DNA of 38,163 nt. Source: a virus. Made by a program: the position numbers and the translations under genes. Position 1 is the first letter of the stretch; the number at the start of each line of letters is the position of its first letter. This document shows, piece after piece, positions 1,827-38,024 of the stretch. The stretch lies in IMG/VR virus record IMGVR_UViG_3300035698_012105, positions 1-38,163 of that record. The stretch is one strand, 5' to 3'. The notes under the pieces are model-generated. The model saw nothing but the letters and a program-made list of their open reading frames with translations. It did not search any database and had not been told where the DNA came from.

Positions 1827-3388
1827 TGGAGGAGAAACAAAAGAAGCAGATAAACGCCACCGCTCAGGTAATGCACGATCTCAAGCAGATATGGACACCC
1901 TTCAAGGGGCGTAGGATCCCAGAGGATCACATATTCATGAAGGACCTCAAATCTACGGAGTATTATCCAGAGGAGGGACAAGTAACCATAGGGAAAGCTT
2001 GCCTATCAGGGAACTACAGCTTAGTATTCATAGAACTAGGACGGCAAACTGGCAAGACGGAGCTAGTAAACGCTATTTCCTGGTACAAAGGCTTGCTAAC
2101 CCCTAGAGCATCAATATACTACTTTTGTCCAGTACAGAAACAGGCGAAAGAAATCGTTTGGGCGAAGAACAGAATTCAAACCATGAACGCGGCAACAGCC
2201 TTGGATCTAGACAAGCTGGACACTTTCCAGAACTATGGTAAGAAGTACATAAAGGGCAAACCGAACAACCAAGAGATGCGTCTATCCTGGATAAATGGAT
2301 CATTCATCAAGGTAGACGGATCGAACAACTATGATGAATATCGAGGTATCACCCCTGACTTAATAATCTTCGACGAGTACCGAGAGTTCCGGCCAGGGGC
2401 GTACGATGCTTTCAAAGCTTCCACTACAACGAAGAAAGCCACCATCATAGTTATCTCCACGCCAGCCCATGCCAAGGGATTCTATACAGACTTAAGGGAC
2501 TACGCCAGAAACCCCGACAACACCGACGCAATGTATTTCCAAGCCCCCACTTGGATGAATCCACACCAAGACTTAGATGAACTAATGAATATACGCAACT
2601 CCTATATACAAAAAGGAGAAATGGACGTATGGCTAAGAGAATACTGCGCTGAGTTCATAGTCGGTGGCTCAAGAGCTATCTTTCCTATGCTCAAGGGGGA
2701 CGAACAGGTACCACACTCCAAAGCAATGTTAGACGCATCCAGGGCTTTAGATTACTACTGCATTTGCGACCCTGGTTCAGCATCCAAGGGTTCAGCCTTC
2801 GCGGTATTATTCGCAGCAATCAACCCGCACACGAAACGCGTAGTATTAATGGATGAACTCTACTTAACCGCAGAGGGCGAAAAGACTGTAGGGGTAATCG
2901 AACCAATGATACGAGAGAAGCTTGCAGAGTTAGCCCCCCACCTAGCAAAACACGACTGGCAGTTCTATTATGATGAAGCAGCAGCCTGGTTCAAAAATGA
3001 GATGGTAGAAAGAGGCTACGCCTTTAACCCCACTAACAAGAAAGCCAAATCAAAGGACGACGGACTATCTACAATAAAGGACGCACTCATAGCCAAAAAG
3101 ATAACTTGGTCTTCTAGGTGCGAAAACCTCATGTGGGAGATGACTAACTACGTGAAGAACGAACAAGGTCAGGTACCTAAGAAGGATGACCACTTAATTG
3201 ATGCTTTCCGCTACCTAATCCAAGTATCACATTACCACATTAATTATCATGGTACAGGAATGGAACGAAAGAAGCTAGACGATGGCCGAACCCGTTGGAT
3301 TTCAATAGATCAGGACTTGGAAGCCATGGGAAACGAAAACCTATTAGACGACAATATAGATTGCGGTTTCTTAGGGGATTTCATGTAA
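1826..3388 (+). CDS. terL: Terminase large subunit
   Basis: This 520-residue ATPase-nuclease drives DNA into the procapsid and cuts it. The N-terminal half shows a Walker A-like GRQTGKT, Walker B LIIFDEYREF, and a coupling motif VISTPAHAKGFY. The nuclease half has an acidic core at ICDPGSASKGSAFAVL, a second acidic patch at YYDEAAAW, and the closing DDHLIDAFRYL typical of the RNase H-fold nuclease. Length is normal for the family. Its stop codon TAA (3386-3388) sits inside the -35 box of the late promoter at 3385. Confidence 0.95.
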   Translation: MEEKQKKQINATAQVMHDLKQIWTPFKGRRIPEDHIFMKDLKSTEYYPEEGQVTIGKACLSGNYSLVFIELGRQTGKTELVNAISWYKGLLTPRASIYYFCPVQKQAKEIVWAKNRIQTMNAATALDLDKLDTFQNYGKKYIKGKPNNQEMRLSWINGSFIKVDGSNNYDEYRGITPDLIIFDEYREFRPGAYDAFKASTTTKKATIIVISTPAHAKGFYTDLRDYARNPDNTDAMYFQAPTWMNPHQDLDELMNIRNSYIQKGEMDVWLREYCAEFIVGGSRAIFPMLKGDEQVPHSKAMLDASRALDYYCICDPGSASKGSAFAVLFAAINPHTKRVVLMDELYLTAEGEKTVGVIEPMIREKLAELAPHLAKHDWQFYYDEAAAWFKNEMVERGYAFNPTNKKAKSKDDGLSTIKDALIAKKITWSSRCENLMWEMTNYVKNEQGQVPKKDDHLIDAFRYLIQVSHYHINYHGTGMERKKLDDGRTRWISIDQDLEAMGNENLLDDNIDCGFLGDFM

Positions 3389-3413
3389 CGTATGAAGTAC
3401 CTAATGACATATA
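3385..3413 (+). promoter_or_regulatory. Late promoter copy F (GTAAC-N17-ACATATA)
   Basis: GTAAC is at 3385-3389 and ACATATA at 3407-3413, separated by exactly 17 bases. It belongs to the family with copies at 5850, 8731, 14718, 36686 and 37996. It lies 37 bases before the start of the 84-residue membrane protein gene and so would drive that gene and the portal. Recognition by the phage sigma factor is inference. Confidence 0.75.
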
Positions 3414-3704: not shown

Positions 3705-5869
3705 TGGGTAATAATGACTTTCTAAACAAAGAGATTCCAAAGATAAAACCTTGGTGGTTACACGACTTAGACAAACCGAACAACAAGAAGCTACTAAAAG
3801 ACTTAGTATCAGCGCACAAAGACTTAGTAGAATACCAATCTGACTACAAAGAGCTATGTCTAAGTAACATAGCACTTTACCAAGGCTTCTCTATAGAGAA
3901 GAAGATAAATAAGGGCGGTCGTCTACACAGGGATTCAGAAGGACACGCAGGAACAACTAACTTCAAATACTTGATAGTAAATCACCTAAGAGACATCACA
4001 GATTCAGCAGTTTCCCGCATGGCCACTTTCAAGCCAGGGGTAGCAGTCTTGCCAAACCACGGCATAGAGTTCAATGACAAGGCAAAAGCAAAGGTTGTAA
4101 AATCTTGGTTAGAATCCTACATGTATGAACACAACATTGACGACGTGAGAAGACAAGTCCAAAGGGACGCCTACATATTTGGAGAATCTTTCCTATCAGT
4201 ATTATGGGACCCTAGCAAAGGGGACATTCACCCAGCAGCTAGAAAACTCAAGAAGACCGTACAGGTAGAAACAGACGAAGGCAAAGTTTCAGTAACTAAG
4301 GTAAAACGCATAGGGGACGTAGGACTTACAAGGGTACTTCCTTTCAGGGTCTTTCCAGAACCGATACCCACACACAATTTCGATGATGCCAGTTGGGTAA
4401 TGATAGAAGATTCTGAGTATATAGAAAAACTAAAGTTAGAGAATCCTAAGGTAGCCGACAAGATACGCCCCGAGGGTCAATCGGACGATACCGGACTATC
4501 TGACAACGACGCTCTCACATATGGCTTAAACAAAGAAGACGACACAGTTTTAGTTGTAACCCTTTTTCACAAGGCTACTGAGGAAGTTCCAGAAGGGCGC
4601 ATGGTAAAGTTCACCAAGGACACCATTCTTTCCAACGACCCATTGCCATACTCACATGGGAATCTTCCAATCGTGAGATTAAGTTCTATAGACGTCCCTG
4701 GGAACATGCGGGGGGTAAGTCCCTACGCTGACTTACGGACACTACAAAGCGCGATCAATACTCTCTACTCTATAATGCTCCGTGATCGATCTTTAGCCTC
4801 ACCTAAGCTATTCGTACCGGCGGGATCAGTTGACTCAACACAGCAAGCCACAAACAAGCCTGGAGTGATTCAGTACAAGGGTGGAGTCCCCCCAACCTGG
4901 TCAGTGCCTAACATGGTTAGCGGTGACCTTATGGCGATGATAGACAAGCTAGAAAACACATTCGAGAAGTTAAGCAATTCCCTAGGTACTCGCAGAGGGG
5001 AAGGGATCCCCAACGTAGAAGCCTTCAAAGCTTTCGGATTCTTCGAAGAACAAGCAACAAAAAGAGAATCAACAAGCATAGCAAAACATAGAGATTTCTT
5101 ACAGAATGTTTTCCTATTAATAACAATGACAGCGGCTGACTTCTATATCCAATCGGACGAAAGAATGATCAAGATGGTAGGAAGACACAATCAATACCTA
5201 CTTAAGCACTTCAACATTGAAGATCTACAACACTCCTATGATATCAGGATACAGAACACAAGTGCACTACCGGAATCAAAAGCAGCCAGGATACAAACAA
5301 TCATCCAGTTATCTCAAGCTTTCCCTGATATGTTCACCCAAGAGAAAATAACTGATATGCTGGATCTTTCCAGCCCTGACGCTTTCTTTGACTTAGCAAC
5401 GGCAGCAATCAACTCAGCGGAAGCGGAGAACGATTCTATAATGAGCGGTGAAGAAATAGCAGAACCTCAGCCATTTGAGGATTCTCTTCAGCATTGGGAA
5501 GCACATGTAACTCTTTTCAATAACCCTACTGTGAAAGCAACCTTACCCACTGACCCAGTGGAAACTAATGCAGCTCTAAACGCAGTAATTACGGGCAACA
5601 TAGAAGGCCCACTATCTCCAGCTCTTCTTCTAGCGAAGCATGTAAACATCACAGAAGGCTTAATGTTTCAACAGGCATTAATCAACCCAAAATTTGCAAT
5701 GAGGTTAGCGGACTTCGAAACATACCCAATCTTTTTCAAGCCTCCGCTAACACTATCAGAAGTGATACAGAGTCACGGCGCACCCGTTGAATCTATACCT
5801 CCAGAGACTGGTATAGACCAAGAGATTATTTTACCAGAAGCACAACAAAGTAACGATCAAATAGGTTAA
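3704..5869 (+). CDS. Portal protein
   Basis: This 721-residue protein follows the large terminase and precedes scaffold and capsid, the standard portal position. The length resembles P22-type portals rather than the shorter T7 type. The middle contains the portal-like stretch SSIDVPGNMRGVSPYADLRTL followed by long helices (LQSAINTLYSIMLRDRSLAS and onward) fitting stem and wing. The C-terminal 200 residues are less conserved and probably form an extended crown. As the dodecameric ring at one capsid vertex it would dock the terminase and then the adaptor encoded at 11151. Confidence 0.85.
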   Translation: MGNNDFLNKEIPKIKPWWLHDLDKPNNKKLLKDLVSAHKDLVEYQSDYKELCLSNIALYQGFSIEKKINKGGRLHRDSEGHAGTTNFKYLIVNHLRDITDSAVSRMATFKPGVAVLPNHGIEFNDKAKAKVVKSWLESYMYEHNIDDVRRQVQRDAYIFGESFLSVLWDPSKGDIHPAARKLKKTVQVETDEGKVSVTKVKRIGDVGLTRVLPFRVFPEPIPTHNFDDASWVMIEDSEYIEKLKLENPKVADKIRPEGQSDDTGLSDNDALTYGLNKEDDTVLVVTLFHKATEEVPEGRMVKFTKDTILSNDPLPYSHGNLPIVRLSSIDVPGNMRGVSPYADLRTLQSAINTLYSIMLRDRSLASPKLFVPAGSVDSTQQATNKPGVIQYKGGVPPTWSVPNMVSGDLMAMIDKLENTFEKLSNSLGTRRGEGIPNVEAFKAFGFFEEQATKRESTSIAKHRDFLQNVFLLITMTAADFYIQSDERMIKMVGRHNQYLLKHFNIEDLQHSYDIRIQNTSALPESKAARIQTIIQLSQAFPDMFTQEKITDMLDLSSPDAFFDLATAAINSAEAENDSIMSGEEIAEPQPFEDSLQHWEAHVTLFNNPTVKATLPTDPVETNAALNAVITGNIEGPLSPALLLAKHVNITEGLMFQQALINPKFAMRLADFETYPIFFKPPLTLSEVIQSHGAPVESIPPETGIDQEIILPEAQQSNDQIG

Positions 5870-5878
5870 AGACATTAA
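5850..5878 (+). promoter_or_regulatory. Late promoter copy A (GTAAC-N17-ACATTAA)
   Basis: GTAAC at 5850-5854 and ACATTAA at 5872-5878 have exactly 17 bases between them; the -10 side reads on as ACATTAATAA, as at 14740. It lies across the end of the portal gene, 27 bases before the scaffold start. Confidence 0.8.
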
Positions 5879-8661: not shown

Positions 8662-8694
8662 CCATCCTACCAGTAGGTAGCGAAGGCTGGTTTC

Positions 8695-8730
8695 CCACTG
8701 TACCCATCTATTAAAACAGTGGACTTTTTA
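8695..8730 (+). terminator. Intrinsic terminator after the head genes
   Basis: CCACTGT (8695-8701) pairs with ACAGTGG (8716-8722) around a 14-base loop and is followed by ACTTTTTA. It ends the capsid transcript, and late promoter copy C begins one base later at 8731, so the tail-fibre genes form a new unit. Confidence 0.6.
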
Positions 8731-8759
8731 GTAACTATTCCACCCTTTACCTACATTAA
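8731..8759 (+). promoter_or_regulatory. Late promoter copy C (GTAAC-N17-ACATTAA)
   Basis: GTAAC at 8731-8735 and ACATTAA at 8753-8759 are separated by exactly 17 bases. It is fully intergenic, directly after a terminator and 33 bases before the tail-fibre gene, which makes it the cleanest copy of the family. Confidence 0.85.
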
Positions 8760-12116: not shown

Positions 12117-14737
12117 TGGCAGTAACACACGGCATAAAAAAGCAGTACTCTTCATTCCTAGGTTTGAACGAGATAGTAGATGACATCTCTAGGGATGTGC
12201 GTTTTGCTACCGAGGCTAACAATGTCCACTTTATGGACGATGGTTCTTTAGCCAAGAGAAGAGGGTACAAGATATTTGATAAAGACGTAGGTGGTTACGG
12301 CATAGAGGGTTTTGACAACATAGACCCCGACACAGGCGCAGTCACCAAAGAAATATTGATCATATCGGACACCATAAGCAGAATGAAAACCGCCGTGCTG
12401 ACTTTAACAAATAACTCTCTCCAAGATGTATCTATAGCCGTGTTCGGTGTAAATACTCAGAACGAATCTACATTAGGTTGGGGACAAGTAGGTTGGGGAG
12501 GCTTCCCATGGGGAGACCCTCTATCCAGAGGATACCATCTTACAGTAGAAGCAATTCCTCTTTACGACAGTGGAGGCGACTTAACAGCATCGGGAGCAAC
12601 AACGGATTATTATCTAGCGGACGAAGTGGAATTAACAGGACCCACCATCGCAACACTTATAACACAATTAGCCTCGAATGCTTATATCTCTGCTGCTGCC
12701 ACTGACGAAACCACGACACCAGCCCCCTTCTTAGAGCTACTATCCGGTGAAACTATGTTAGCTGGCGAGACTTTGGAATTAACTTATTACTATGCAGAAG
12801 AGGTAAATGGTGACTCTGCTTCAGGGTTTTCACTAGGTTTCGCAGATTTCAAAACAAGCCAAGACGCTTTCCATATAGACACAGCCCGTTTCAACAGATC
12901 TATTTATTTCACCACTGGGTTGGATCCTTTACAACAGTATGACGGCAATTCACTCTTTCGTGCAGGCATGGAAGCAGGGACAAAACCTACAGTAACCTCA
13001 GCGGGTGCAGGAGTTCTAGCAGGGGATTACCTTTATAAAGTACAACCATGGTTTAAAGACCGCAACGGACAAACTCATTACGGAGCGATAGGAAGCGCAA
13101 GTACATCTATTTCCGTAGCATCTAAGCAGAACATCATAACTATAACAAACGTGGAGGAAGGCAATGGATTCGACGCAAGAGGGGGCCACGCTGACGGTGC
13201 TCAAAGTGCCGCTTCTGTTAGCGGAGCTGTTACTTTGGTTATAGACGATGGGGGAAGCGGAAACCACACAATAGAAGCAGATGACAAGATAAGACTATTC
13301 AATAGTGACGCGGCTACCAATGCTTACGCAGAGTATAGAGTTACGGCAACAACTACTTCAACGGTGACCGTAACGTCTAGCGTTACCATAGGGTTAGTTA
13401 ACGGAGTAAGAATCTCAACGGGTATATCTCTAGACCTCTACAGGACTATATCCAGCGGTACCACTTATTCATTAGTAGCACAAATAAACAATGATCCTTT
13501 TAATGCTACCCAAACTTACACCGACAATACAGCAGACGCAAGCCTAGGAGCTAGATTTCTTGAGCCATTAAGGACACCAGCCGAACCGCCAACAACGAAG
13601 TTCATCACAACCTTCGATAATTACCTACTACTAGGGAACAAGGTATCGGATCCCAACATAGCTTATTATAGTGAACCAGATGCCCCCACAAACTTCCCAG
13701 CTTTAAACAGTTTCTCTGTTGAATCGGACGACGGTGGTGTCATAACAGCCTTAGCCCAATCTAGCGACTCCCTCATAATATTCAGGGAAAAAAGTGTATA
13801 CCTAATGGTAGGAGACTTAGCGAGAGATACAATAAGCGTAACCCAGATAAGCAGTGGCGGCATAGGATGTAAATCCCACAAAACCGTAGTGCCTATTAAT
13901 GGCGTACTTTTCTTTTTAGGCGACCGTGGAGTTTATACCATGGTAGGGGCGGGGATACCTAAACTTATTTCAGGCCCTGTAACTAAGTCATTGACTACAA
14001 AGAGAATCATAGACGAAGAAATCCTAAGATTCACCAGAGCAGTAGCAATTCACCACGTACAAGACAAACAGTACATTCTCTATATACCAGCGGAGGAAAC
14101 CTTAAGTGGAGAACTCTACGCCAACAGTTCATCCCTGAATCTAGTATACAGCTATGATCGTGATTCATGGGCAAAGTGGACTGGTGTGAATGCTTCTACT
14201 GGGTTAGCTTATGCCGACGACAAACTATGGTTTAGTTCTAGGGAAGTAAGATCAGATGATTTAGCAGTCAACCTAAGAGTATGGAGACAGCACAACGACG
14301 GCGAGGTTCACGACTACGCTGACCAGCTAGACACTGTAGATTTCGAGTATGGTACAGGTTGGGAATCAGCAGGTAGCCCAGTGACAGCAAAGAAATTTCT
14401 AAGATTGAAACTCTACTCATTAGCAGATATAGACACACTACCACCATTAAAAGCATTCGTTGCAACAACTACTACTGAGATAGACTACAAAGAACACGCA
14501 ACACATAGCTCATTATCTTTCAGCTTCCCTAGCAAGGGAGCCTCCTGGGACTCTAAATCTTGGGACTCATTTCCATGGGGAGGGGAACACAAATCTTCCT
14601 TTAAGTCTAAGTTACGTCGAGGCCAAGCGCGCTCTTTACGAGTAGTTCTTGCCAACGAAGAGTACAACACCAATGTATTATTTACAGGGTATGAACTCGA
14701 ATACGCAGCCCCTCAGGGTAACACAATAAAAGGCTGA
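12116..14737 (+). CDS. Tail nozzle protein (tail tubular B-like)
   Basis: At 873 residues this is the largest virion protein. The N-terminal EANNVHFMDDGSLAKRRGYK and the central stretch from TTFDNYLLLGNKVSD through SLIIFREKSVYLMVGD and LFFLGDRGVYTMVGAG are typical of podovirus nozzle or stabilisation proteins, a beta-propeller-like core. Two unusual Trp/Gly patches (GWGQVGWGGFPWGD near residue 120; SWDSKSWDSFPWGGEH near the C-terminus) look related. Residues about 370-440 may be an inserted beta module. The start is ATG 12116, coupled to the adaptor stop, rather than an ATG at 12104. Late promoter copy B lies in its 3' end. Confidence 0.75.
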   Translation: MAVTHGIKKQYSSFLGLNEIVDDISRDVRFATEANNVHFMDDGSLAKRRGYKIFDKDVGGYGIEGFDNIDPDTGAVTKEILIISDTISRMKTAVLTLTNNSLQDVSIAVFGVNTQNESTLGWGQVGWGGFPWGDPLSRGYHLTVEAIPLYDSGGDLTASGATTDYYLADEVELTGPTIATLITQLASNAYISAAATDETTTPAPFLELLSGETMLAGETLELTYYYAEEVNGDSASGFSLGFADFKTSQDAFHIDTARFNRSIYFTTGLDPLQQYDGNSLFRAGMEAGTKPTVTSAGAGVLAGDYLYKVQPWFKDRNGQTHYGAIGSASTSISVASKQNIITITNVEEGNGFDARGGHADGAQSAASVSGAVTLVIDDGGSGNHTIEADDKIRLFNSDAATNAYAEYRVTATTTSTVTVTSSVTIGLVNGVRISTGISLDLYRTISSGTTYSLVAQINNDPFNATQTYTDNTADASLGARFLEPLRTPAEPPTTKFITTFDNYLLLGNKVSDPNIAYYSEPDAPTNFPALNSFSVESDDGGVITALAQSSDSLIIFREKSVYLMVGDLARDTISVTQISSGGIGCKSHKTVVPINGVLFFLGDRGVYTMVGAGIPKLISGPVTKSLTTKRIIDEEILRFTRAVAIHHVQDKQYILYIPAEETLSGELYANSSSLNLVYSYDRDSWAKWTGVNASTGLAYADDKLWFSSREVRSDDLAVNLRVWRQHNDGEVHDYADQLDTVDFEYGTGWESAGSPVTAKKFLRLKLYSLADIDTLPPLKAFVATTTTEIDYKEHATHSSLSFSFPSKGASWDSKSWDSFPWGGEHKSSFKSKLRRGQARSLRVVLANEEYNTNVLFTGYELEYAAPQGNTIKG

Positions 14738-14746
14738 ACACATTAA
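14718..14746 (+). promoter_or_regulatory. Late promoter copy B (GTAAC-N17-ACATTAA)
   Basis: GTAAC at 14718-14722 and ACATTAA at 14740-14746 are exactly 17 bases apart; the extended -10, ACATTAATAA, equals that of copy A. It lies across the end of the nozzle gene, 30 bases before the next start, and would drive the ejection-protein genes to 19626. Confidence 0.8.
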
Positions 14747-14775: not shown

Positions 14776-15114
14776 ATGAAATTCAGAGAGATAAAGCCAT
14801 TTAATGAAGGCCAATCCCTTACGGGTTACATAACTCAATCCTTGTTCTATGATTTAAAAAATCTAGTGGATGGACTCTTTCGTATTGATCTCGAAGAAAA
14901 TATGGAGTCTTTCACTTATGAAGGAACAATTAGCGCGGGCACAGAAGCCGAAATTAGAAACCCTCTCTCGAACACTCCTGGCGGTAGACTGGTCGTTAAA
15001 CACACTGGTGACCCTGGAATTGTTGATGGCGATACAGAGTGGACTAATAATTTTGTCTACCTAAAGAACGTAGGTTCTTCAGCAGCAACAGTAAAAGTAA
15101 TATATTTCAAATGA
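14776..15114 (+). CDS. Small beta-rich virion protein
   Basis: The 112-residue product begins MKFREIKPFNEGQSLTG and ends in a beta domain (GGRLVVKHTGDPGIVDGD, then NNFVYLKNVGSSAATVKVIYFK in part) like those of small phage structural proteins. I cannot name it. Late promoter copy B is directly upstream, making it first in the ejection-protein unit. Confidence 0.65.
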   Translation: MKFREIKPFNEGQSLTGYITQSLFYDLKNLVDGLFRIDLEENMESFTYEGTISAGTEAEIRNPLSNTPGGRLVVKHTGDPGIVDGDTEWTNNFVYLKNVGSSAATVKVIYFK

Positions 15115-19742: not shown

Positions 19743-20789
19743 CTAGATGAGATCTAAATATAGGTCTTTCAGTATACGACGAAGTTTCCTATTAATCCCA
19801 AAGAATCTTTTTCGGGAATAGTTATCGGTAATTCCTAAGAGCTTACCAATTTCTTTATGCTTATATCCTGCGTGTCTGAGTTTGAACAATCTACGATCAA
19901 GAGCGGATACAGTACCCAATGCTTCATCGATATACTTACCCAGCATCTTAGCCTTGGGCGGTTTACGGTTTATATCCTCTAGATCATTAGTACCCTCTTC
20001 AGAGAAATAGAATGTTCTAGCGAAAGTCTCGCTTCTACGTCTAAAATTCATGACGTTATAATAGATACACTTATAGGCAAAGGTCCACAAGCTACTAGTA
20101 AAATCAAATCTCTCTTCCAACAAAGCAAGCACATTCAACAAAGCGTCTTGAGTTGCATCGAAGAGATCCGACGAGTTTCTAACGTGCTTTCTACAAAGGT
20201 TTCTAGCTTTAGGCCTTAGCTCCAAGTAGACACTTTCAACAGCACTCTCCTCGCGCATAACGGCCCCTAGTAGTCTAGCCTTCTCTTTCAAAGCTTCTAA
20301 GGTAGAATTGTTATTAATTATAGAACCGAAATCCATGTCATCTAGTGCACACTCAGATTCATGGTTAGATTCTAAACTAGTTCTTCCTTCAATCCGCACT
20401 GTTCGTATATTACTTCCTTCGAAGGCTTCCTTGATAGTAACGCACTCGTTAGGGAACCTCCAATCTGTTATCACAAAATATTCCTTATTAGATTTATGGA
20501 TCTTATCTATAACCATATTAACCCAATAATCTTCGTCTAAGTCTCTACGCTCCTTGCCTATAGTTAGTAGTAGATCCCTAGGTGTTTGATGTTTACCACA
20601 GATAAGTAGAACAGCGTCCTTCAAACCAACGGCGTGAAAGGACTCTATATCAAGGCCGGACTCCTCAGCAGCAACCTCCTTGAGGGAATCAGCGATTGCA
20701 ATCCTTTCCCAATTAGGACCCATCAAATTACAAAAAGTATCTTTACCAGACCCTGCTTTTCCTGAAAGAATAACGATTGTCTTGTGCAT
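19743..20789 (-). CDS. Fused dNMP kinase - ECF-type sigma factor
   Basis: One unbroken 348-codon frame holds two domains. Residues 1-170 are a T4 gp1-like deoxynucleoside monophosphate kinase: P-loop GKAGSGKDT at 10-18, ITDWRFPNE at 107-115, and the closing HESECALDDMDFGSIINNN. Residues about 183-255 match sigma region 2 (SSDLFDATQDALLNVL, then FTSSLWTFAYKCIYYNVMNF with RRR), and 287-341 match region 4 (ALDRRLFKLRHAGYKHKEIG then KLLGITDNYSRKR). About 30 linker residues join regions 2 and 4, as in ECF sigmas. The kinase would make dNDPs; the sigma would redirect host RNA polymerase. It is last in the - arm, which suits a late-gene switch. I know no such fusion. Confidence 0.85.
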   Translation of the reverse strand: MHKTIVILSGKAGSGKDTFCNLMGPNWERIAIADSLKEVAAEESGLDIESFHAVGLKDAVLLICGKHQTPRDLLLTIGKERRDLDEDYWVNMVIDKIHKSNKEYFVITDWRFPNECVTIKEAFEGSNIRTVRIEGRTSLESNHESECALDDMDFGSIINNNSTLEALKEKARLLGAVMREESAVESVYLELRPKARNLCRKHVRNSSDLFDATQDALLNVLALLEERFDFTSSLWTFAYKCIYYNVMNFRRRSETFARTFYFSEEGTNDLEDINRKPPKAKMLGKYIDEALGTVSALDRRLFKLRHAGYKHKEIGKLLGITDNYSRKRFFGINRKLRRILKDLYLDLI

Positions 20790-20806: not shown

Positions 20807-20826
20807 GGCCCCCTTTGCAGAGGGCC
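20807..20826 (-). terminator. GC-rich hairpin before the kinase-sigma gene
   Basis: Read on the - strand the RNA folds as GGCCCUCU-GCAA-AGGGGGCC, eight pairs with one G-U and a GNRA-type tetraloop, followed by GUUUCU. It lies between the upstream gene's stop (20833) and the kinase-sigma start, 17 bases from the start codon. It could be an attenuator, an RNA-end stabiliser, or a structure that affects initiation. A similar hairpin lies at 25106-25125. Confidence 0.5.
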
Positions 20827-20832
20827 AAGTTG

Positions 20833-21039
20833 TTACTTCTTGTTAATACGAGCTTTAAGATACTTAGCTATCCTTGCGATAAGGGTAATTTTGTTAGCTT
20901 CTATCTGGACGATAAGCCCATCATCAATTTTGTTAGCTGTCTTTGCTGCTAACATCTTGAGTACAAGTAACGCCCCCGCAAAGCCTAAACCTGCTATAAG
21001 TAAAATATTGTCTGATAAAATTATCAATAGATCTTCCAT
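20833..21039 (-). CDS. Small one-helix membrane protein (holin candidate)
   Basis: The 68-residue protein has a hydrophobic helix at about residues 3-30 (ILLIAGLGFAGALLVLKMLA) followed by a polar, lysine-rich tail (KTANKIDDGLIVQIEANK). It could be a holin or another small membrane effector; one helix with a basic tail is not diagnostic. I chose ATG 21039 (MEDLL) because its AGGAG site, which lies in the last codons of the preceding gene, is about seven bases upstream; an ATG two codons earlier sits too close to that site. Confidence 0.6.
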   Translation of the reverse strand: MEDLLIILSDNILLIAGLGFAGALLVLKMLAAKTANKIDDGLIVQIEANKITLIARIAKYLKARINKK

Positions 21040-21041
21040 GA

Positions 21042-21455
21042 TCATTCTCCTGGGTTGTTGTTAATTCCTAGCAATTCCACTAGGACTTCTAATTTATCTT
21101 TGAACCAACTCCTTGGTTGGGCTTCCTCATGTAGTAGGAAAGATGTACCACTGAATTTTGTTTTACATTCTAAACAAGAAGGGACGTAAAGGCATTGACC
21201 TCCAGCCATTAGAAGAACTTCGTTGAGTCCTCTACGTTTATGACAAAGGGCACAAGGTTTTATATCAGCCAAGGTATTTGAAACCTTGGGGCACGTACCT
21301 CGCGGTTGCAGATTACTAGCCGCAATAGAAATAGACGAACCGTTAAACTTTACCTTACACTTGGAACAAATAGAGAGGTGTAGATTCTTACCGCTATCCA
21401 CAATAATAATGCTAGTGATGTTCTTCTTGCTATTACATAAAAGACATTTGTCCAT
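21042..21455 (-). CDS. Double zinc-ribbon protein
   Basis: This 137-residue protein carries two copies of CxxC-x22-CxxC (Cys 4, 7, 30, 33 and Cys 68, 71, 94, 97), an internal duplication with identical spacing. Each would bind one zinc. The C-terminal tail (RSWFKDKLEVLVELLG, then INNNPGE) resembles that of the next upstream gene product. Function is unknown; the position in the replication arm allows a nucleic-acid or host-protein binding role. Confidence 0.65.
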   Translation of the reverse strand: MDKCLLCNSKKNITSIIIVDSGKNLHLSICSKCKVKFNGSSISIAASNLQPRGTCPKVSNTLADIKPCALCHKRRGLNEVLLMAGGQCLYVPSCLECKTKFSGTSFLLHEEAQPRSWFKDKLEVLVELLGINNNPGE

Positions 21456-21457
21456 GC

Positions 21458-21661
21458 TTATTCTCCTTTATTGTTGTTATCAATGTTTAACCATCCGGCC
21501 AGAATATTAGAAAATTTATAAAACCAATTTAGGGGTTCGGGATCTTTGACAGCACTACCATAGAAATGATCCTCACATACAGGTAGTTCCAGTATTTCCC
21601 CGTCAACTTTTACCATCCTTTTTCTTGTGCTTGGTAGTTTACAAAAGGTGCATTTACTCAT
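21458..21661 (-). CDS. Single zinc-ribbon protein, paralogue of its neighbour
   Basis: The 67-residue protein has CxxC-x21-CxxH (Cys 4, 7, 29, His 32) and a C-terminal tail NWFYKFSNILAGWLNIDNNN matching the tail of the 137-residue neighbour. The two genes thus form a small paralogous family of three zinc modules. I start at ATG 21661, which overlaps the resolvase stop (ATGA) and has an AGGAGA site, rather than an upstream start that would extend into that gene. Confidence 0.65.
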   Translation of the reverse strand: MSKCTFCKLPSTRKRMVKVDGEILELPVCEDHFYGSAVKDPEPLNWFYKFSNILAGWLNIDNNNKGE

Positions 21662-22200
21662 TGTTCTTCTCCTTCCTTTGTTTGATCGTACATCCATAAA
21701 GCCATTCCTACCGCATCGATAGCATGCTCATAATTACTAGCCGTGGTCTTTGTTATCCATGGCCAGTCACAGGGATCTTTATTCTCAAGTCTCTCGAAGA
21801 TCCTTGGGTGGTTCTGCTCCTTACTACGGGATTGGGTCCAAGTCTTAGGTAGAACAAAGAGTTTTTCTTCTGCATCTACCATGGCGTAGAAAGCTCCGCT
21901 GACTTTACCCATCCTTATAAGTACGTTGGCATTAGCTCCTGGTTTACCTGCTCTTCTCGGGTAACTCTCTTGTGCCTCTACAATCAGTTTACCACCTTTG
22001 AACATTAAGGGGAAGTCTTTTTTGCATTGTTCTAAACCACCTATCATAGCGTGTACCTTATCCAAGGATTTAGCTACTGCTTGCCATGCTGGTTTAACAA
22101 CTCCGACGTGCTCAACAAAGATACCATCTTCGTAGAAATCCACGACAGCTATACCCACCTTTAACAGTCCTGGGTCAAATGCAATAATTCTACTTTCCAC
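21658..22200 (-). CDS. RuvC-like Holliday-junction resolvase
   Basis: This 180-residue RNase H-fold nuclease would cut branched DNA left by replication and recombination before packaging. Visible motifs are FDPGLLKVGIAVVD (catalytic Asp 9), LIVEAQESYPRR (Glu 75 and 78), GKVSGAF, and the closing YEHAIDAVGMALW (His 159, Asp 162). I prefer the GTG at 22200, with AGGGGG seven bases upstream, to a TTG at 22221. It overlaps the end of the polymerase gene by 11 bases. Confidence 0.8.
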   Translation of the reverse strand: MESRIIAFDPGLLKVGIAVVDFYEDGIFVEHVGVVKPAWQAVAKSLDKVHAMIGGLEQCKKDFPLMFKGGKLIVEAQESYPRRAGKPGANANVLIRMGKVSGAFYAMVDAEEKLFVLPKTWTQSRSKEQNHPRIFERLENKDPCDWPWITKTTASNYEHAIDAVGMALWMYDQTKEGEEQ

Positions 22201-24100
22201 GACACAACCCCCTAGGCTCAATAGATTTACTCATCTCTAGTAAGAAGGGGCCATCTTTAGTCCAGTTACTCATAACACTAGCTTCTAAGGATATCTTAAC
22301 ATCAGGTAGAATCTCAGCCATGCCCTGTAACATCTCGGTCATAGCAATGTCAATTCTTTCCTCTAACTTTGCATCATTAGGGATTTCTAAGATGTATTCA
22401 TCATGGCAAAACCCCAAGAGTTTACATCCCTTCAAGGAACCAAGTTTACAAGCTTTGGCTAATCTGATACCTGCCACCTTAGCTCCATCCGCACTACGAG
22501 ATTGTAGGCCTAACCCATTCAATCCACTACAGTAACCACACTTAGCTCTCCATCTTCCAGAGCTAGAGTAAGACCACCCATCAGATTCTTCCTGCATAGT
22601 ATACCAGCAAAAGAGTTCTTTAACTTCTGGGTAGGTATGTAAGAACACCTCCCTAAGCTCCCTAGCTTTTTCTAAAGTCATATCCTTAATTCCATAAGAT
22701 ACCTTAGCATACTGTACCATTCTAGCAGCCCCTAAACCTCCAGGAAACCCGAAGTTAGCAGCCTTTGCATTCTGTCGATTTTGTTTATATTTTTTGTCGC
22801 TTCCTTTTAACCCCTCGATGAATTCTTGGTATGACAAAGACCCACCTTCTTTCAGGTTCAACAACTGTACACCCATTTGACTGTGTGGATCTTGTCCAGC
22901 ATTGATAGCATCTCGCATCTTACTATAACCGAATAGCTCATACGTTACTTGAGCAAGGCAATCAAGTTCAATATGACTATAATCTATACTTACCAAAACG
23001 TTACCAGGTCTAGCAATATGAGCTTCCCGAATACCCCCTATCTTAGGTAGATTCTGGATATTCTCGGAAGGTCTGCGGTTAGGTCTATCCTTAACACGGT
23101 GACCGTGGCCACTGGTACGACCGGACTCCACCAGTACGTTAAACCCTGGATGTATTACAGGCCCAAGAAGTAGATTAGGCACATAAGTAGATAGCAATTT
23201 AGCACAACTCTTGTACTCCTTCAAAGCATCTAACACTATGTCAGAGGGGAACTCTTGTAAAGACTCAGAGGCTAAGCTAACTTGACCCTCGGGGAAAGTC
23301 TTGCTAGGTTCCGAGTACGTTATTAAGGAAGGGTATGTACTACTAAGGTACTCCTTGAGAGACTTCTCAGCAACCGACACTTTCCCTTTCTTATTCACAG
23401 TAGCAAAACCACCCTTGATTAGAGCAGCAAGAGGTTCTTCCATCCTACTTTGTAGTTCCACCCTAAGGTTTTTTACAAAGTCGGTATCTATCAAGAAACC
23501 AGTATCAGTCATAAGAGAACAAACAAAATCATAATAAGTTTGTAAGTCCTCTGTACCTATGGAACAATACCCATCGGTATTAGCCAGGGCTTCTTGTCGA
23601 TAATATATATCGCTTCCGTGCTTAGTATCAGACAAGGCATACTCAGAGGCAGCCTCTGGCCACTCCTCCAAGGGTACACCAATCAACTCACCATACTTTA
23701 ACCTCCATGCATTTTCATCAGTCTTGCTTTCACTGATATCTACCTCGAAGTAACGCATTACACAAGCTGCCAGGGATTTAGAGTTTCTTAAGTGTCCGAC
23801 AACTGAGAGGTGCAACAAAGATTCTCTAATCAGTGTACACCTTATTCTTCCCTTGTCATAAGCCTCGAAGATCAAAGCCCTGAGTTTAGGAAAGTGTTTG
23901 TATAATACAGCCATGTCGAAGGCAGCATTGTGCCACACTAAAGTGTCACCAGCCAGGAAGTGTTTTTTCATCTCCTGCTCAATGTTAAGACTTAGATAAT
24001 GTTCACCTTCCCCGTATGTAGACAAAACCACAGGGGGAGGGTAATCGTCAAGAGTGCTAAATAACTCAGTCTCTAAATCCAACGTGTATATCTTACTCAT
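22190..24100 (-). CDS. Family A DNA polymerase with 3'-5' exonuclease
   Basis: This 636-residue polymerase copies the phage genome. The exonuclease domain has TLDLETE (Asp 8, Glu 10), VWHNAAFD (Asn 58, Asp 62) and YALSD (Tyr 154, Asp 158). Palm and fingers show motif A SIDYSHIELD (Asp 373), the O-helix RQNAKAANFGFPGG (Arg 442, Lys 446, Phe 450) and motif C CHDEY (566-568). The residue matching E. coli Pol I Phe762 is Phe; the position of Tyr766 is Gly. No 5' nuclease domain is present. GGAGG precedes the ATG, and the start overlaps the upstream stop (ATGA). Confidence 0.95.
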   Translation of the reverse strand: MSKIYTLDLETELFSTLDDYPPPVVLSTYGEGEHYLSLNIEQEMKKHFLAGDTLVWHNAAFDMAVLYKHFPKLRALIFEAYDKGRIRCTLIRESLLHLSVVGHLRNSKSLAACVMRYFEVDISESKTDENAWRLKYGELIGVPLEEWPEAASEYALSDTKHGSDIYYRQEALANTDGYCSIGTEDLQTYYDFVCSLMTDTGFLIDTDFVKNLRVELQSRMEEPLAALIKGGFATVNKKGKVSVAEKSLKEYLSSTYPSLITYSEPSKTFPEGQVSLASESLQEFPSDIVLDALKEYKSCAKLLSTYVPNLLLGPVIHPGFNVLVESGRTSGHGHRVKDRPNRRPSENIQNLPKIGGIREAHIARPGNVLVSIDYSHIELDCLAQVTYELFGYSKMRDAINAGQDPHSQMGVQLLNLKEGGSLSYQEFIEGLKGSDKKYKQNRQNAKAANFGFPGGLGAARMVQYAKVSYGIKDMTLEKARELREVFLHTYPEVKELFCWYTMQEESDGWSYSSSGRWRAKCGYCSGLNGLGLQSRSADGAKVAGIRLAKACKLGSLKGCKLLGFCHDEYILEIPNDAKLEERIDIAMTEMLQGMAEILPDVKISLEASVMSNWTKDGPFLLEMSKSIEPRGLCRGK

Positions 24101-28281: not shown

Positions 28282-29529
28282 TTAAAATCCTAGTTTATTA
28301 ACCTTTGATTGATTAGCTGTATCTTGCAGATCGAAGACTTTATCTACGTCAGCAATAGTAACTCTAACTTTGGAGATAGAAGAACCTATCTCATCCATTA
28401 GATCGATTTGTACATCAGGGGCATTTCTACCTTGGATATCTTTACTCAGTTTTAAGATGTGTTCCAGTACCTTAACAGAATATTTCACACCGTGGTAGTC
28501 TTCGTATAGATGTTTTATCCCTGTGAGGATATCTAGAATCTCCCGATCCTTTAGCGTATCAAGTACCACGGGTTGAAATCTACGTCCTAAAGCGGCATCT
28601 CTTTTTATAATGCCATACTCTGAGTTTGTAGTCGCTCCGATTACTTGTAGCTTACCTCTAGCTAACGCAGGTTTAAGCATGTTGGCAGCATCTTGGCCCC
28701 CCTCGCACGATCCAGCCTGAACAATCATATGCACTTCATCAATAAAAGCGATAGCGTTAGGATCATCCTCTAGCTCTTTAACAACACCTGTTAACCTCTC
28801 CTCGAACATACCCCTATATTGCGTACCAGCTACAAGGAGATTCATATCAAGAATATAGATCCTCTTGTCGTGTAGTTTAGTACAGTGCACTTCTTTGTTG
28901 TGGATAGAAAGAGCTAAACCCTCCACCAGTGCGGATTTCCCCACCCCTGCTTCTCCTAAGATAACAGGGTTGTTCTTTCGTCGTCTGCTGAGTACCTGAG
29001 TAACTCGCTCTATTTCTCGTTTTCTGCCAATTAGTAGGTCTAGCTTTCCTTCTGTAGCCATGGCGGATAGGTCAACACAAAACTTATCCATGTTAGGAGT
29101 TTTATTTTTTTCTTCTTTTCCGGTATGGAGTTGGATATTTAGGCGACTTATGTCCATTATAAGTTTTTCGACTTCAACGCCGATATCTAGTAACATTTTC
29201 CTTATCTTTGTAGGCCGTTTGAGTAAGCTAGCCACAAAAGTAGTTAACGATTGCATTGGGAAAGTACTGCCTAAAAGACCATCTAACTCAGCGTGGGGAG
29301 TTTCACACAAAAGAGAAAATATACTCCTATTACTCCTCGTGCTTAGATTATTAAGAGTGGTTATAGTATCTAAATCTATTTTATGGGTAGCTAGTACCTT
29401 GATAATTTTGAAGTTAGGGGAGCCTAACAGGGCCATCATTACATGGACACTTGTGTAACGCTCTTCGTTATAGAAGGCGGCTAGTCTCTTTGCGTGCGCT
29501 ATAACCTCGACGATTGAATCTCTGGACAT
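28282..29529 (-). CDS. Single-ring ClpA/ClpC-like AAA+ protein
   Basis: The 415-residue protein has a Clp N-terminal-type helical domain (about 1-135) and one AAA+ module matching D1 of ClpA/B/C: GKLDLLIGRKREIERV, Walker A GEAGVGKS (192-199), pore loop QYRGMFEERL (Tyr 238), Walker B AIAFIDEVH, a sensor in GATTNSEYG, and arginines at GRRF (316-317). D2 and its ClpP-docking loop are absent; the protein stops about 75 residues after the D1 core. It may remodel replication or host proteins, or act as a helicase loader. It sits 11 bases from the helicase gene, with an AAGGAG site. Confidence 0.85.
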   Translation of the reverse strand: MSRDSIVEVIAHAKRLAAFYNEERYTSVHVMMALLGSPNFKIIKVLATHKIDLDTITTLNNLSTRSNRSIFSLLCETPHAELDGLLGSTFPMQSLTTFVASLLKRPTKIRKMLLDIGVEVEKLIMDISRLNIQLHTGKEEKNKTPNMDKFCVDLSAMATEGKLDLLIGRKREIERVTQVLSRRRKNNPVILGEAGVGKSALVEGLALSIHNKEVHCTKLHDKRIYILDMNLLVAGTQYRGMFEERLTGVVKELEDDPNAIAFIDEVHMIVQAGSCEGGQDAANMLKPALARGKLQVIGATTNSEYGIIKRDAALGRRFQPVVLDTLKDREILDILTGIKHLYEDYHGVKYSVKVLEHILKLSKDIQGRNAPDVQIDLMDEIGSSISKVRVTIADVDKVFDLQDTANQSKVNKLGF

Positions 29530-31290: not shown

Positions 31291-31464
31291 CTATAGATAA
31301 GTTTCGAAGATTTCGCCTTCGGATTTAAAAAAGTACTCGGTGTCTAACTCTGATAAGTCTTGAATCTCTATGAGGAGATCTAATTCTCCTGGGTACTCTA
31401 GGGACAGTCTTACACGTCTCCTAGCCTCAATGATATCACTCGGATCAGCTAAAAAAATTAACAT
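31291..31464 (-). CDS. Short protein of unknown function
   Basis: A 57-codon frame starts at an ATG with AAGGAG eight bases upstream and overlaps the end of the zinc-peptidase-like gene by seven bases. The product is charged (DPSDIIEARRRVRLSLEYPG) with an acidic second half. I recognise no family. Codon pattern, ribosome site and tight packing support a real gene. Confidence 0.6.
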   Translation of the reverse strand: MLIFLADPSDIIEARRRVRLSLEYPGELDLLIEIQDLSELDTEYFFKSEGEIFETYL

Positions 31465-31904
31465 TCTACAACTCCTTGTAAATGGGGCGCTAGGTAGTCT
31501 AGTATCCTAACGACCTCAGGTAAAACATCAAGTTCCCACTCGATACCTTCTTCGAGACAAGCTTCAGTCAAGGTCTTTAGTGGACCAGGATCGACTTCTT
31601 CGACGTAAGGGAACAGTAACACATTAGTAGCAGCTTCGGCTATGGTCTCCTCTACAAGCCTGTAAATTTCACGTTCACCGTAATGAACTAAGGTAAATCT
31701 ATTAAGGATTGTCTCTTTACCTACGTAGTGAGCCAATTCATGAAGCAGCACGTGAATCTTCTGGTATTCAGGGAGAGAGCCACGGACAAGAATCTTGTCT
31801 TTCCAGTAGAGACAAAGCCCCTCCCATTGGGAGTTTTCATCGCTACTTTCCTCTACCCTTACCCCTAGTAGGCTGGCGACTTTCTTTAGCTGATGGTAGT
31901 TCAT
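31458..31904 (-). CDS. ImmA/IrrE-like zinc metalloprotein (cytoplasmic)
   Basis: The 148-residue protein has HELAH at 55-59 (VLLHELAHYVG) and a downstream acidic helix (LVEETIAEAATNVLLFPY) in the place of the third zinc ligand, as in ImmA/IrrE-type peptidases (DUF955). No helix-turn-helix and no signal peptide is seen. Such proteins cleave repressors or other regulators, but the target here is unknown. It has its own sigma-70-like promoter at 31933-31962. It resembles its neighbour around the active site (HELxHYxG). Confidence 0.7.
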   Translation of the reverse strand: MNYHQLKKVASLLGVRVEESSDENSQWEGLCLYWKDKILVRGSLPEYQKIHVLLHELAHYVGKETILNRFTLVHYGEREIYRLVEETIAEAATNVLLFPYVEEVDPGPLKTLTEACLEEGIEWELDVLPEVVRILDYLAPHLQGVVEC

Positions 31905-31930
31905 GGTGTCTCTCCTTTTGCTTTATATTT

Positions 31931-32473
31931 TTATTGTAGCATAAGCCGATTTTCAATGTCAAGTTTTTTTATTTGGTGGATTAAATAATTGTAAGCCTCT
32001 CTAATGTAGTAGTATGACTCCAACTTTTCCCTCTCTGTAAGTTCGTGCCATTTGCTGTGACCTAAAAGGTACGTGATCATCTCTTGTTTCGGATAAGCGT
32101 GCTCACCCTTATACAATACCTTAGAAAGAAGGACTGTGGTATACTCAGCAATGAATTCTTCGTTTATAACGTCTATGTAAGGGGGACGAAAAACTCTATC
32201 CTTCCTCGAGCCAGTGTAATGAACCAATTCATGGATGACGGTAGCTAAGTAGTGGGCATCTGTTTCATCCTTTTCTTGTGCAGAGATGCGAATCTTATCT
32301 TCTCTAACATAGTAGGCAGCCACCATACCCCTAGCTCCTTCCTTGACTTGGTTGTCTTCTACTGAGTAATCTACTCCTAGGATATCATAAATTTCTAGGG
32401 GGTTTATGTCTCCAGCTACTAAGCTACCGACACTAAGAATAGTGACTAGTGAGAAAGCTTTAAATATATTCAT
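31931..32473 (-). CDS. Exported HExxH zinc metalloprotein
   Basis: The 180-residue protein begins with a likely signal peptide (MNIFKAFSLVTILSVGSLVA, cleavage near Ala 20). It then shows HELVH at 81-85 (VIHELVHYTGSRKDR) and an acidic helix INEEFIAEYTTVLLSKVLY. The HELVHYTG context resembles the zincin domain of ArdC-type proteins, but export argues against ordinary antirestriction. An envelope role (lysis, exclusion, or wall opening) is possible. It overlaps the upstream gene's stop by four bases; a promoter for the next gene overlaps its 3' end. Confidence 0.65.
   Translation of the reverse strand: MNIFKAFSLVTILSVGSLVAGDINPLEIYDILGVDYSVEDNQVKEGARGMVAAYYVREDKIRISAQEKDETDAHYLATVIHELVHYTGSRKDRVFRPPYIDVINEEFIAEYTTVLLSKVLYKGEHAYPKQEMITYLLGHSKWHELTEREKLESYYYIREAYNYLIHQIKKLDIENRLMLQ
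31933..31962 (-). promoter_or_regulatory. Sigma-70-like promoter for the ImmA-like gene
   Basis: On the - strand TTGACA (31957-31962) and TACAAT (31933-31938) are separated by 18 bases, with an A-rich run just upstream of the -35. Predicted start is near 31926, about 20 bases before the ATG of the 148-residue gene. Confidence 0.75.
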
Positions 32474-32800: not shown

Positions 32801-32829
32801 AATATACAATATCTATCGGATTATGTCAA
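32801..32829 (-). promoter_or_regulatory. Leftward early sigma-70-like promoter
   Basis: On the - strand TTGACA (32824-32829) and TATATT (32801-32806) are 17 bases apart. The upstream flank through the -35 (CTCTAAAGTTTTCTTGAC, 32825-32842) is identical to that of the rightward promoter at 33744. It would start the whole - arm. Confidence 0.85.
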
Positions 32830-33743: not shown

Positions 33744-33772
33744 TTGACGTAACCCGACAACTAGAGTATAAT
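33744..33772 (+). promoter_or_regulatory. Strong rightward early promoter
   Basis: TTGACG (33744-33749) and a perfect TATAAT (33767-33772) are 17 bases apart. The preceding CTCTAAAGTTTTCTTGAC (33731-33748) is identical to the leftward promoter flank. It drives the small-gene train. Confidence 0.9.
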
Positions 33773-36685: not shown

Positions 36686-36714
36686 GTAACGTTATGGCTT
36701 GGAAGTGACATTAA
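36686..36714 (+). promoter_or_regulatory. Late promoter copy D (GTAAC-N17-ACATTAA)
   Basis: GTAAC at 36686-36690 and ACATTAA at 36708-36714 are exactly 17 bases apart. It is intergenic, 41 bases before the DUF115-like gene. A second ACATTAA at 36730-36736 has no partner box. Confidence 0.85.
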
Positions 36715-36754: not shown

Positions 36755-37999
36755 ATGGAAGTCAGAATAAAACCAATCCATATCAAATTAAAAGCCTTGA
36801 AAAACGACGTTGTTTCTGCAGAAACTCAGTTTGGCAAAGTAGATGTACCCATGTCCAACTTTGCTTTCATCACGCAGGGTTTAGCCTACCAACAGAGACC
36901 ATTCAAAGTAACAGCTTCACCCAAGTTAACGGAGGCTTTCTATAACTCACTTAACAGCCAAGTTTGTCTAAGTCATCTAGCCAGGGACATATCTCCCTTT
37001 CTGAGTAACTACCTAACAAACAAGTGTTCCTCGAATATATCAACCTATGAATCTTTTTTCGAGCATCTCAAACCGACCAAGCGAATTCTGTTCTGCGGTG
37101 CTGGGCCGTCATTGTACGAGTCTTGGGAGTTTGTCGAATGGTGTTTAAAAACCGGCTACGCTACTGTGATCGCGGGTGGTTCGGCAATTAAAGCCTTTGA
37201 GTTGCAAGGGTTAATCCCTGATATCTGTCTAGCCTGTGATCCGCACCCCGCTGTGTTAAATCGAGGCTGTGTATCCGAAGAGTTTGCCAAATCCACAGTC
37301 TTATTAGCTGGCTCAGGCGTCTACCCAGAGTTTCTAACTGCTTGGCCTGGCCCAAAGGTGTTAACTAACGGCATGTCAGCCCTCCCAATGGGTAAGTACT
37401 TTGAACCTACCAAGGAAATGCTCAGCGAAGGCGGCATTGGTGTATCTACGTTCTCTATGGGCTTAGCTTCCGCTCTCCCCGACGTAGAAGAACTATTCTT
37501 ATTAGGCGTTGACCTATGCCCTACCTCTGACAAACAAGTTTACCCCGACCACCTAGGATTTAAAACCGAAATTGACCCCTCAAGGGAACACTTATGGACT
37601 TGCGAAGCGAACTACCTTGGATTATTAGCCAAGAAGACCTCTTACAGGGTCATTAATCTATCCATTAAAGGCAGACAAATACCAGGATCTACCAAAGTAC
37701 CCACTAACAGGGTACTAGACTGGGAACTTAAGCCTATAAACAGGGTACTACCTACCCTGACTGGATACAATAGAGAAGAATTTATCTCAAAGTGTGTTTT
37801 CTTCTCCTCTGAGTTAATTAATCTCGACCTTAACGACATCACAAGAAGCCCAGTCTACAAGGCTTTCATAGAGATCTATCACAACGTGTATTTATCAAGA
37901 ACTCTTTACACTGGTGAATACTCAAGGGAACCAATGTTACTAAAGATAGAGTGTCTGAAATCATTCCTAAGAGAATTACTAGAATCAATAAAGAGGTAA
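36755..37999 (+). CDS. DUF115/MAF-like protein, possible glycosyltransferase
   Basis: The 414-residue protein has a Rossmann-like core of the DUF115 / motility accessory factor family: ILFCGAGPSLYESWEF (about 111-126), TVIAGGSAIKAFELQGLIPD and ICLACDPHP, then LFLLGVDLCPTSDK. Cellular MAF proteins attach nonulosonic acids to flagellin, and related DUF115 proteins act in pterin or sugar metabolism. Here it is the first gene after a late promoter and leads into the virion genes, so modification of virion or host-surface proteins is plausible. GGAGG lies 11 bases before the ATG. Its stop TAA lies inside the next late promoter. Confidence 0.75.
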   Translation: MEVRIKPIHIKLKALKNDVVSAETQFGKVDVPMSNFAFITQGLAYQQRPFKVTASPKLTEAFYNSLNSQVCLSHLARDISPFLSNYLTNKCSSNISTYESFFEHLKPTKRILFCGAGPSLYESWEFVEWCLKTGYATVIAGGSAIKAFELQGLIPDICLACDPHPAVLNRGCVSEEFAKSTVLLAGSGVYPEFLTAWPGPKVLTNGMSALPMGKYFEPTKEMLSEGGIGVSTFSMGLASALPDVEELFLLGVDLCPTSDKQVYPDHLGFKTEIDPSREHLWTCEANYLGLLAKKTSYRVINLSIKGRQIPGSTKVPTNRVLDWELKPINRVLPTLTGYNREEFISKCVFFSSELINLDLNDITRSPVYKAFIEIYHNVYLSRTLYTGEYSREPMLLKIECLKSFLRELLESIKR

Positions 38000-38024
38000 C
38001 AAACAAGACTCCCAAGCACATAAA
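37996..38024 (+). promoter_or_regulatory. Late promoter copy E (GTAAC-N17-ACATAAA)
   Basis: GTAAC at 37996-38000 contains the stop codon of the DUF115-like gene; ACATAAA at 38018-38024 follows after exactly 17 bases. On the circle it lies 87 bases before the first virion gene (75). The predicted transcript would begin near the hairpin at 38031. Confidence 0.75.

Follow-up and report, generated by a model that had tools for sequence, protein, structure and literature searches.

An Apparently Undescribed Phage Fusion of a dNMP Kinase to an ECF-Type Sigma Factor and a Predicted Class of Late Promoters

Results and Discussion

A Single Open Frame at the End of the Replication Operon

The DNA analyzed here, referred to as the window, is a whole IMG/VR virus record of 38,163 nucleotides (IMGVR_UViG_3300035698_012105). 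The first 127 bases recur at its end, consistent with a complete unit of 38,036 bases. The gene of interest lies on the minus strand at 19743-20789, where 348 codons run from ATG to stop without interruption. An original prediction, made from the letters of the DNA, had placed one uninterrupted frame at exactly these coordinates without giving the strand. The features of the gene and of its surroundings are collected in Table 1.

Table 1. Coordinates of the fusion gene, its domains and the associated features of the window
Feature	Position	Strand	Details
dNMP kinase-ECF-type sigma fusion gene	19743..20789	-	348 aa; final gene in the replication operon of the minus strand
Kinase domain, residues 1-170	20280..20789	-	P-loop GKAGSGKD, R71, D109/R111/E115, SECALD
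Sigma region 2, residues 183-255	20025..20243	-	Sigma70_r2 in all members; helical in model
Variable inter-region linker, residues 256-282	19944..20024	-	Disordered at 266-278
Sigma region 4 with helix-turn-helix, residues 283-348	19746..19943	-	Sigma70_r4_2 in all members
Leader hairpin	20807..20826	-	Immediately precedes the fusion gene's ribosome-binding site
Family A DNA polymerase	22190..24100	-	phrog_17, 1.3e-70; upstream of the fusion in the same operon
Host-type (sigma-70-like) promoter TTGACA-N17-TATATT	32801..32829	-	Head of the minus-strand operon; 11/12 consensus positions, consensus match only
Predicted late promoter GTAAC-N17-ACATA	3385..3411	+	After the terminase gene; equivalents in G010 (19448) and G008 (1506)
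Predicted late promoter GTAAC-N17-ACATT	5850..5876	+	55 nt before gene at 5905; equivalent in G010 (21961)
Terminator-like hairpin CCCACTG...CAGTGG, then ACTTTTT	8694..8722	+	Directly before the promoter at 8731
Predicted late promoter GTAAC-N17-ACATT	8731..8757	+	61 nt before gene at 8792; equivalents in G010 (24853) and G008 (6905)
Predicted late promoter GTAACAC-N15-ACATT	14718..14744	+	58 nt before gene at 14776
Predicted late promoter GTAAC-N17-ACATT	36686..36712	+	69 nt before gene at 36755
Predicted late promoter GTAAC-N17-ACATA	37996..38022	+	Head of the structural cluster; continues to position 24 of the circular unit

The gene order common to the phages with the fusion is polymerase, a RuvC-like protein, a small membrane-type protein and the fusion, which is convergent with the end of the late operon. 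The putative RuvC-like protein was read from an AFDPG motif and has no family match. Directly preceding the fusion gene in four of four phages is a 70-aa protein with a hydrophobic N-terminal segment (20833-21045 in the window). The window also encodes two small related CxxC-type (zinc-ribbon-like) proteins at 21042-21697, with no counterpart between the same neighbors in the relatives, and no kin were found for the gene at 21658-22221. No anti-sigma gene was recognized; the small neighbors at 20833-21697 match no family. A co-transcribed anti-sigma gene is not universal among ECF sigma factors.

The leader hairpin occupies the same place before the genes of all four relatives, with diverged sequence. 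In the window it is stable and is followed by a short U-rich stretch, and it may be a partial terminator or a leader element.

The best host-type promoters of the window (11 of 12 consensus positions) are all early-region sites: two are on the minus strand, at 32829 and 31962, and one is on the plus strand, at 33744. The late region holds no host-type promoter of this quality, and total counts equal those of shuffles. PHROG scans of the ORFs longer than 250 aa returned no phage RNA polymerase; a search for a T7-type RNA polymerase also gave no match, but it was run without a working positive control, so that the PHROG scans are the better evidence. A single sigma region 2 was found in the window. 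Taken together, the early-region promoters, the single sigma region 2 and the lack of a recognizable phage polymerase suggest that transcription of the minus-strand operon probably falls to the host holoenzyme.

Several further genes of the window are worth recording. An AAA ATPase whose annotation is that of a family of ATP-dependent proteases (28282-29529; phrog_4871, 3e-84) is present in the window and in one relative (G008), while its counterpart was not found in another (G010). Near the head of the minus-strand operon, 31458-32473 encodes two adjacent small proteins that match zincin-type metallopeptidases (PF06114, weak, and PF18818), the second of which also matches an anti-restriction family. 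An MptE-like protein (36755-37999; PF01973, 2.2e-21), which is unusual for a phage late region, is encoded beside the late genes, preceded by a predicted late promoter of its own. The window contains no tRNA and no Rfam RNA.

The N-Terminal Half Has the Hallmarks of a dNMP Kinase

Residues 1-190 match the dNMP kinase family phrog_139 at 1.3e-37, and the Pfam family DNMK (PF21448) exceeds its curated cut-off, with 37 bits against 27.1. Both the P-loop and the D-x-R-x3-E block are present, and G10, G15, K16, R71, D109, R111 and E115 are invariant across 38 kinases, including all four fused proteins. Searches by PDB sequence and by fold returned the T4 dNMP kinase (1dek) and phosphomevalonate kinase, to which the P-loop fold is common. 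Between members, the kinase half is 46-58% identical. One relative (L044) reads DCRYPDE where DWRFPNE stands otherwise, and substrate preference may therefore vary. We infer from these sequence features that the N-terminal half works as a dNMP kinase.

The C-Terminal Half Has the Layout of an ECF Sigma Factor

The RNA polymerase sigma factor family phrog_1740 matches residues 146-341 at 1.2e-16, and its scores in the four fused proteins are 1.2e-16, 3.6e-21, 6.3e-20 and 3.2e-13, although this family is broad, and a cellular ECF also falls within it. By Pfam, the window copy reaches 6e-5 for Sigma70_r2 and 0.001 for Sigma70_r4_2, each slightly below the whole-protein cut-off. Region 2 is above the cut-off in fused relatives, and both domains are matched by five of five alignment members (best E values 2.8e-7 and 3.5e-7). 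A profile built from four sigma halves matches the ECF sigma factor SigW along both regions at 5.8e-7, followed by SigL, AlgU and sigmaE.

ECF sigma factors consist of two regions separated by a linker of fewer than 50 residues (PMC8103513). The fusion contains region 2 (188-253) and region 4 (from about 283), joined by a linker of about 30 residues, with no region 1.1 or region 3. Region 4 is 50-67% identical between members; region 2, at 27-51%, is the least conserved part, and the inter-region linker falls to 7-20%. An AlphaFold model (mean pLDDT 87.8, pTM 0.71) places the kinase, a three-residue junction, a helical region 2, a disordered stretch at 266-278 (pLDDT < 50) and region 4 in that order, and a Foldseek search with this model returned both kinases and ECF sigma factors. 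The best viral fold match, A0A811AA94, has 368 aa and aligns over 241 columns, which exceeds the kinase alone; it may be another kinase fusion.

The original prediction had read the frame as a full kinase followed by sigma regions 2 and 4 with ECF-like spacing, and the Pfam, PHROG, PDB-sequence and fold searches all agree with this reading. Residues 183-341 do match sigma-70 regions 2 and 4. The accompanying view that both halves keep their key motifs and that the gene is not a broken one is upheld by the profiles and by the intact relatives described below.

The Fusion Is Conserved Within a Narrow Clade

When viral contigs were scanned with the single sequence of the fusion protein or of the DNA polymerase, no relatives emerged; a scan with the capsid protein did find relatives. 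Capsid relatives were fetched from IMG/VR, and their contigs were searched with the whole fusion protein and then with a profile. Two of these contigs encode residues 3-348 of the fusion, at 45% and 42% identity, with no stop. The profile search added two more: a distinct sequence (L048) and a contig (L051) whose fusion has the sequence of the second relative. Thus, besides the window, the full-length fusion is present at the same locus in three distinct sequences (49, 45 and 42% identical) from four contigs, and the order of kinase then sigma is kept in every copy. The original prediction had proposed a search for other genomes with the fusion; these independent contigs carry it, and contain neither a stop nor a frameshift between the domains. 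An internal start yielding a free sigma factor was considered and rejected, because the methionine is missing in L048 and the weak Shine-Dalgarno sequence is present in the window alone.

No match among 50,697 phage records spans 80% of the fused protein, and the fusion is absent from the phage isolates of that collection. In a collection of bacterial and archaeal genomes, no match runs beyond residue 184. A sigma-half profile run over other viral kinase loci revealed no second kind of fusion, and near-complete capsid relatives at ≤52% identity lack both halves. Within the scope of these collections, only a narrow clade, a small group of bacterial viruses that are uncultured, carries the fusion.

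A number of candidates were discarded. Relatives of the AAA protein were phages without the fusion; H61 seems to be an ordinary ECF gene of cellular type on a contig classed as phage; phiFN37 has a protein with region 4 only; the long match of L073 was only apparent, with a kinase only; and L176 encodes a free-standing sigma-like protein in a contig where no kinase was found. A separate arrangement was seen in L068 (9980-12214), where the dNMP kinase is unfused and a small protein that has only sigma region 4 is encoded about 1.2 kb downstream of it.

Full-text searches of the open-licence literature found no paper on a dNMP kinase-sigma fusion. The kinase-sigma fusion is thus real, conserved and apparently undescribed. 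The original prediction had held that no described protein was known to join deoxynucleotide synthesis to promoter choice: this stands for the physical fusion, but both families are near neighbors, unfused, in phage phiEco32. With the same two families one gene apart there, their functional association is not wholly unprecedented, whereas their physical fusion is.

A Two-Box Motif Precedes the Late Genes

Late-gene junctions of the window and of two relatives (G010, the contig of L014, and G008, the contig of L012) were read side by side. They share a recurring box of ACATA type and, at a constant distance upstream of it, a second box, GTAAC. Sites of the form [GA]TAAC-N17-ACAT[AT] on the plus and minus strands numbered 7 and 0 in the window, 5 and 0 in G010, and 4 and 1 in G008, counts which carry the caveat that the motif was noticed in the same genomes. 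In 200 shuffles, the plus-strand means were 0.28, 0.22 and 0.18 and the maxima 3, 2 and 2, respectively. Other spacings mostly gave 0 or 1 sites, and the maximum was 3, for spacing 20 in the window. When a weight matrix was trained on the two relatives, it was over-fitted to G010 and ranked only some window sites above shuffles.

Six of the seven strict GTAAC-N17-ACAT sites in the window are intergenic and lie 55-69 nt upstream of plus-strand late-gene starts; the seventh, at 9395, falls within a gene. Over 14 sites, most of the spacer between the boxes carries little information, and an extra A two bases past the second box, which was not part of the search pattern, is invariant (14/14). At the junction before the gene at 8792, the terminator-like hairpin is followed directly by the promoter in the window, G010 and G008 alike, with diverged sequence between the boxes. 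The site at 14718, where the first box and the end of the preceding coding region overlap, has equivalents in G010 (30631), G008 (12901) and L048 (8502, minus strand). L048 reads GTAACAC-N15-ACATC at its one comparable junction. In eight capsid relatives without the fusion, some of them partial, spacing 17 gave 0 or 1 site per genome over both strands, with no peak.

An AAC in the -35 box is a hallmark of ECF promoters (PMC8103513, PMC8791391), and it is present in the -35-type box (GTAAC) of all predicted sites, consistent with recognition by the sigma half. The second box, ACATW, does not contain the CGT usual in the -10 box of ECF promoters, a departure shared by other ECF groups (PMC8791391). 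Positive autoregulation, an ECF trait, was not seen, as GTAAC-N17-ACAT sites are absent from the minus strand of the window. A phage-specific promoter motif repeated before structural genes is also a feature of phiEco32-type phage sigma systems.

A Proposed Two-Part Regulator and Its Alternatives

We think it probable that the fused protein is a two-part phage regulator, in which an active dNMP kinase is joined to an ECF-type sigma factor that directs host core RNA polymerase to GTAAC-N17-ACATW late promoters. Host RNA polymerase with the main host sigma factor would transcribe the minus-strand replication operon, which ends in the kinase-sigma gene. The kinase half, with its retained active-site residues, would feed DNA precursors to the DNA polymerase of the same operon. 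The sigma half would bind host core RNA polymerase and direct it to the motif sites, which precede packaging, capsid and tail genes on the opposite strand. At a minimum, the gain from fusion would be the one-to-one accumulation of both activities, so that late-transcription capacity would rise in step with DNA-synthesis capacity.

Other explanations differ in how much of this they would overturn. The window is a metagenomic contig, and an assembly chimera or a frameshift could in principle have joined two genes; the same uninterrupted fusion, with its neighbors kept, in four distinct sequences from five contigs refutes this, and its probability is negligible. It is very unlikely that the kinase half has no enzymatic role and is a mere tether or inhibitor of the sigma half, similar to fused anti-sigma domains. 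Fused regulatory domains of such a type are known on bacterial ECF sigma factors (PMC8999054), but here every invariant kinase residue is retained, and conservation of the kinase half equals that of region 4 and exceeds that of region 2, unlike what a decayed enzyme would show. The motif, for its part, might not be the target of this sigma factor: it could be a host sigma site or an RNA or translation signal at gene junctions, with the sigma half acting otherwise. The sites do fall just after stop codons and before ribosome-binding sites, where other signals occur too. We nevertheless find this improbable in view of the fixed spacing of the two boxes, the uninformative spacer, the strand specificity, the lack of a peak in relatives without the fusion and the dissimilarity of the box to the strong sigma-70-type promoters of the early region.

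A further possibility concerns how, rather than whether, the two halves act together. Sensing of nucleotide supply, gating of the sigma factor and simple co-delivery had been offered as alternatives in the original prediction; to these, the present analysis adds a likely target, a class of late promoters. The sigma factor may be nucleotide-gated, with the kinase domain sensing the deoxynucleotide state and thereby setting when host RNA polymerase starts the late genes; we regard this as unlikely, though still a live alternative, and the same tentative standing applies to its possible mode, in which binding of dNMP or ATP would move the kinase relative to region 2 and so release or block core binding. 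In the structural model, only three residues separate kinase helix 164-177 from the sigma helix that comes first (181-200), so that a movement could be passed on. The constant order of kinase then sigma fits gating, as does the lack of a recognized anti-sigma gene, given that ECF sigma factors without one often bear a regulatory extension (PMC8103513, PMC8999054). Against this, fusion alone does not imply allostery. If true, gating would be a direct molecular link from DNA precursor supply to promoter choice.

With or without gating, the two-part regulator we propose bears on a question of timing. The timing of the phage switch from replication to late transcription has been explained for few systems. 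Phage T4 times it via its sliding clamp (PMC2988020). In the phages described here, a single molecule appears to combine the supply of DNA precursors with the switch to late genes. With a DNA-precursor enzyme and a presumed late sigma factor in one polypeptide, and with presumed target promoters readable from the sequence, the coupling is open to a minimal assay that needs only the purified protein, core polymerase and short templates. The protein would also be a phage example of an ECF sigma factor extended by an enzyme at its N terminus; for sigma factors of this class, a 2021 review states that there is no mechanistic information (PMC8103513). Phage ECF-type late sigma factors are already known; the new elements would be the fusion itself and the predicted cognate class of late promoters in the fused-protein phages, and fusion and motif together are a new candidate orthogonal sigma-promoter pair.

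Comparison With Known Systems

The fusion shares its profile, fold and active-site residues with phage dNMP kinases (T4 gene 1 product, phrog_139, PF21448), which are kinases only. With bacterial ECF sigma factors such as SigW, sigmaE, SigL and AlgU, it shares the possession of regions 2 and 4 only, the short linker, the fold and the AAC in the -35-type box; it differs from them in having an N-terminal enzyme domain, in being phage-borne, in having no recognized anti-sigma partner and in lacking a site of its own motif upstream of its gene. Bacterial ECFs with fused regulatory extensions are known, and most of these extensions are C-terminal (PMC8103513, PMC8999054). In ECF41, SigJ with SnoaL, ECF36 and the Planctomycetes N-terminal groups, a second domain replaces the anti-sigma factor, as may be the case in the fusion, but their extensions are mostly C-terminal, or N-terminal of membrane or unknown type, and no nucleotide kinase is named among them (PMC8103513, PMC8999054).

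The best-studied phage with an ECF sigma factor is phiEco32 (Kuravirus, NC_010324). Its ECF-type sigma factor gp36 belongs to phrog_1740 (1.9e-45) and its dNMP kinase gp34 to phrog_139 (3e-56); the sigma factors of the two systems are distantly alike, and the kinases align well (E 1.6e-14). In genes 34-36 (L167, 32887-34810), kinase and sigma are unfused on one strand with gp35 between them, and the sigma gene lies upstream of the kinase gene, whereas the kinase comes first in the fusion. As in the window, the sigma/kinase strand is near replication genes and the structural genes are on the other strand. The phiEco32 sigma factor serves structural-gene promoters on that other strand, and the same is predicted for phage 7-11 (PMC4331800). 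The promoter motif of phiEco32 is TAATGTATA (PMC4331800), as against GTAAC-N17-ACATW in the fused-protein phages. By analogy, the fusion system would work like that of phiEco32, except that kinase and sigma factor are fused and stand in the opposite order.
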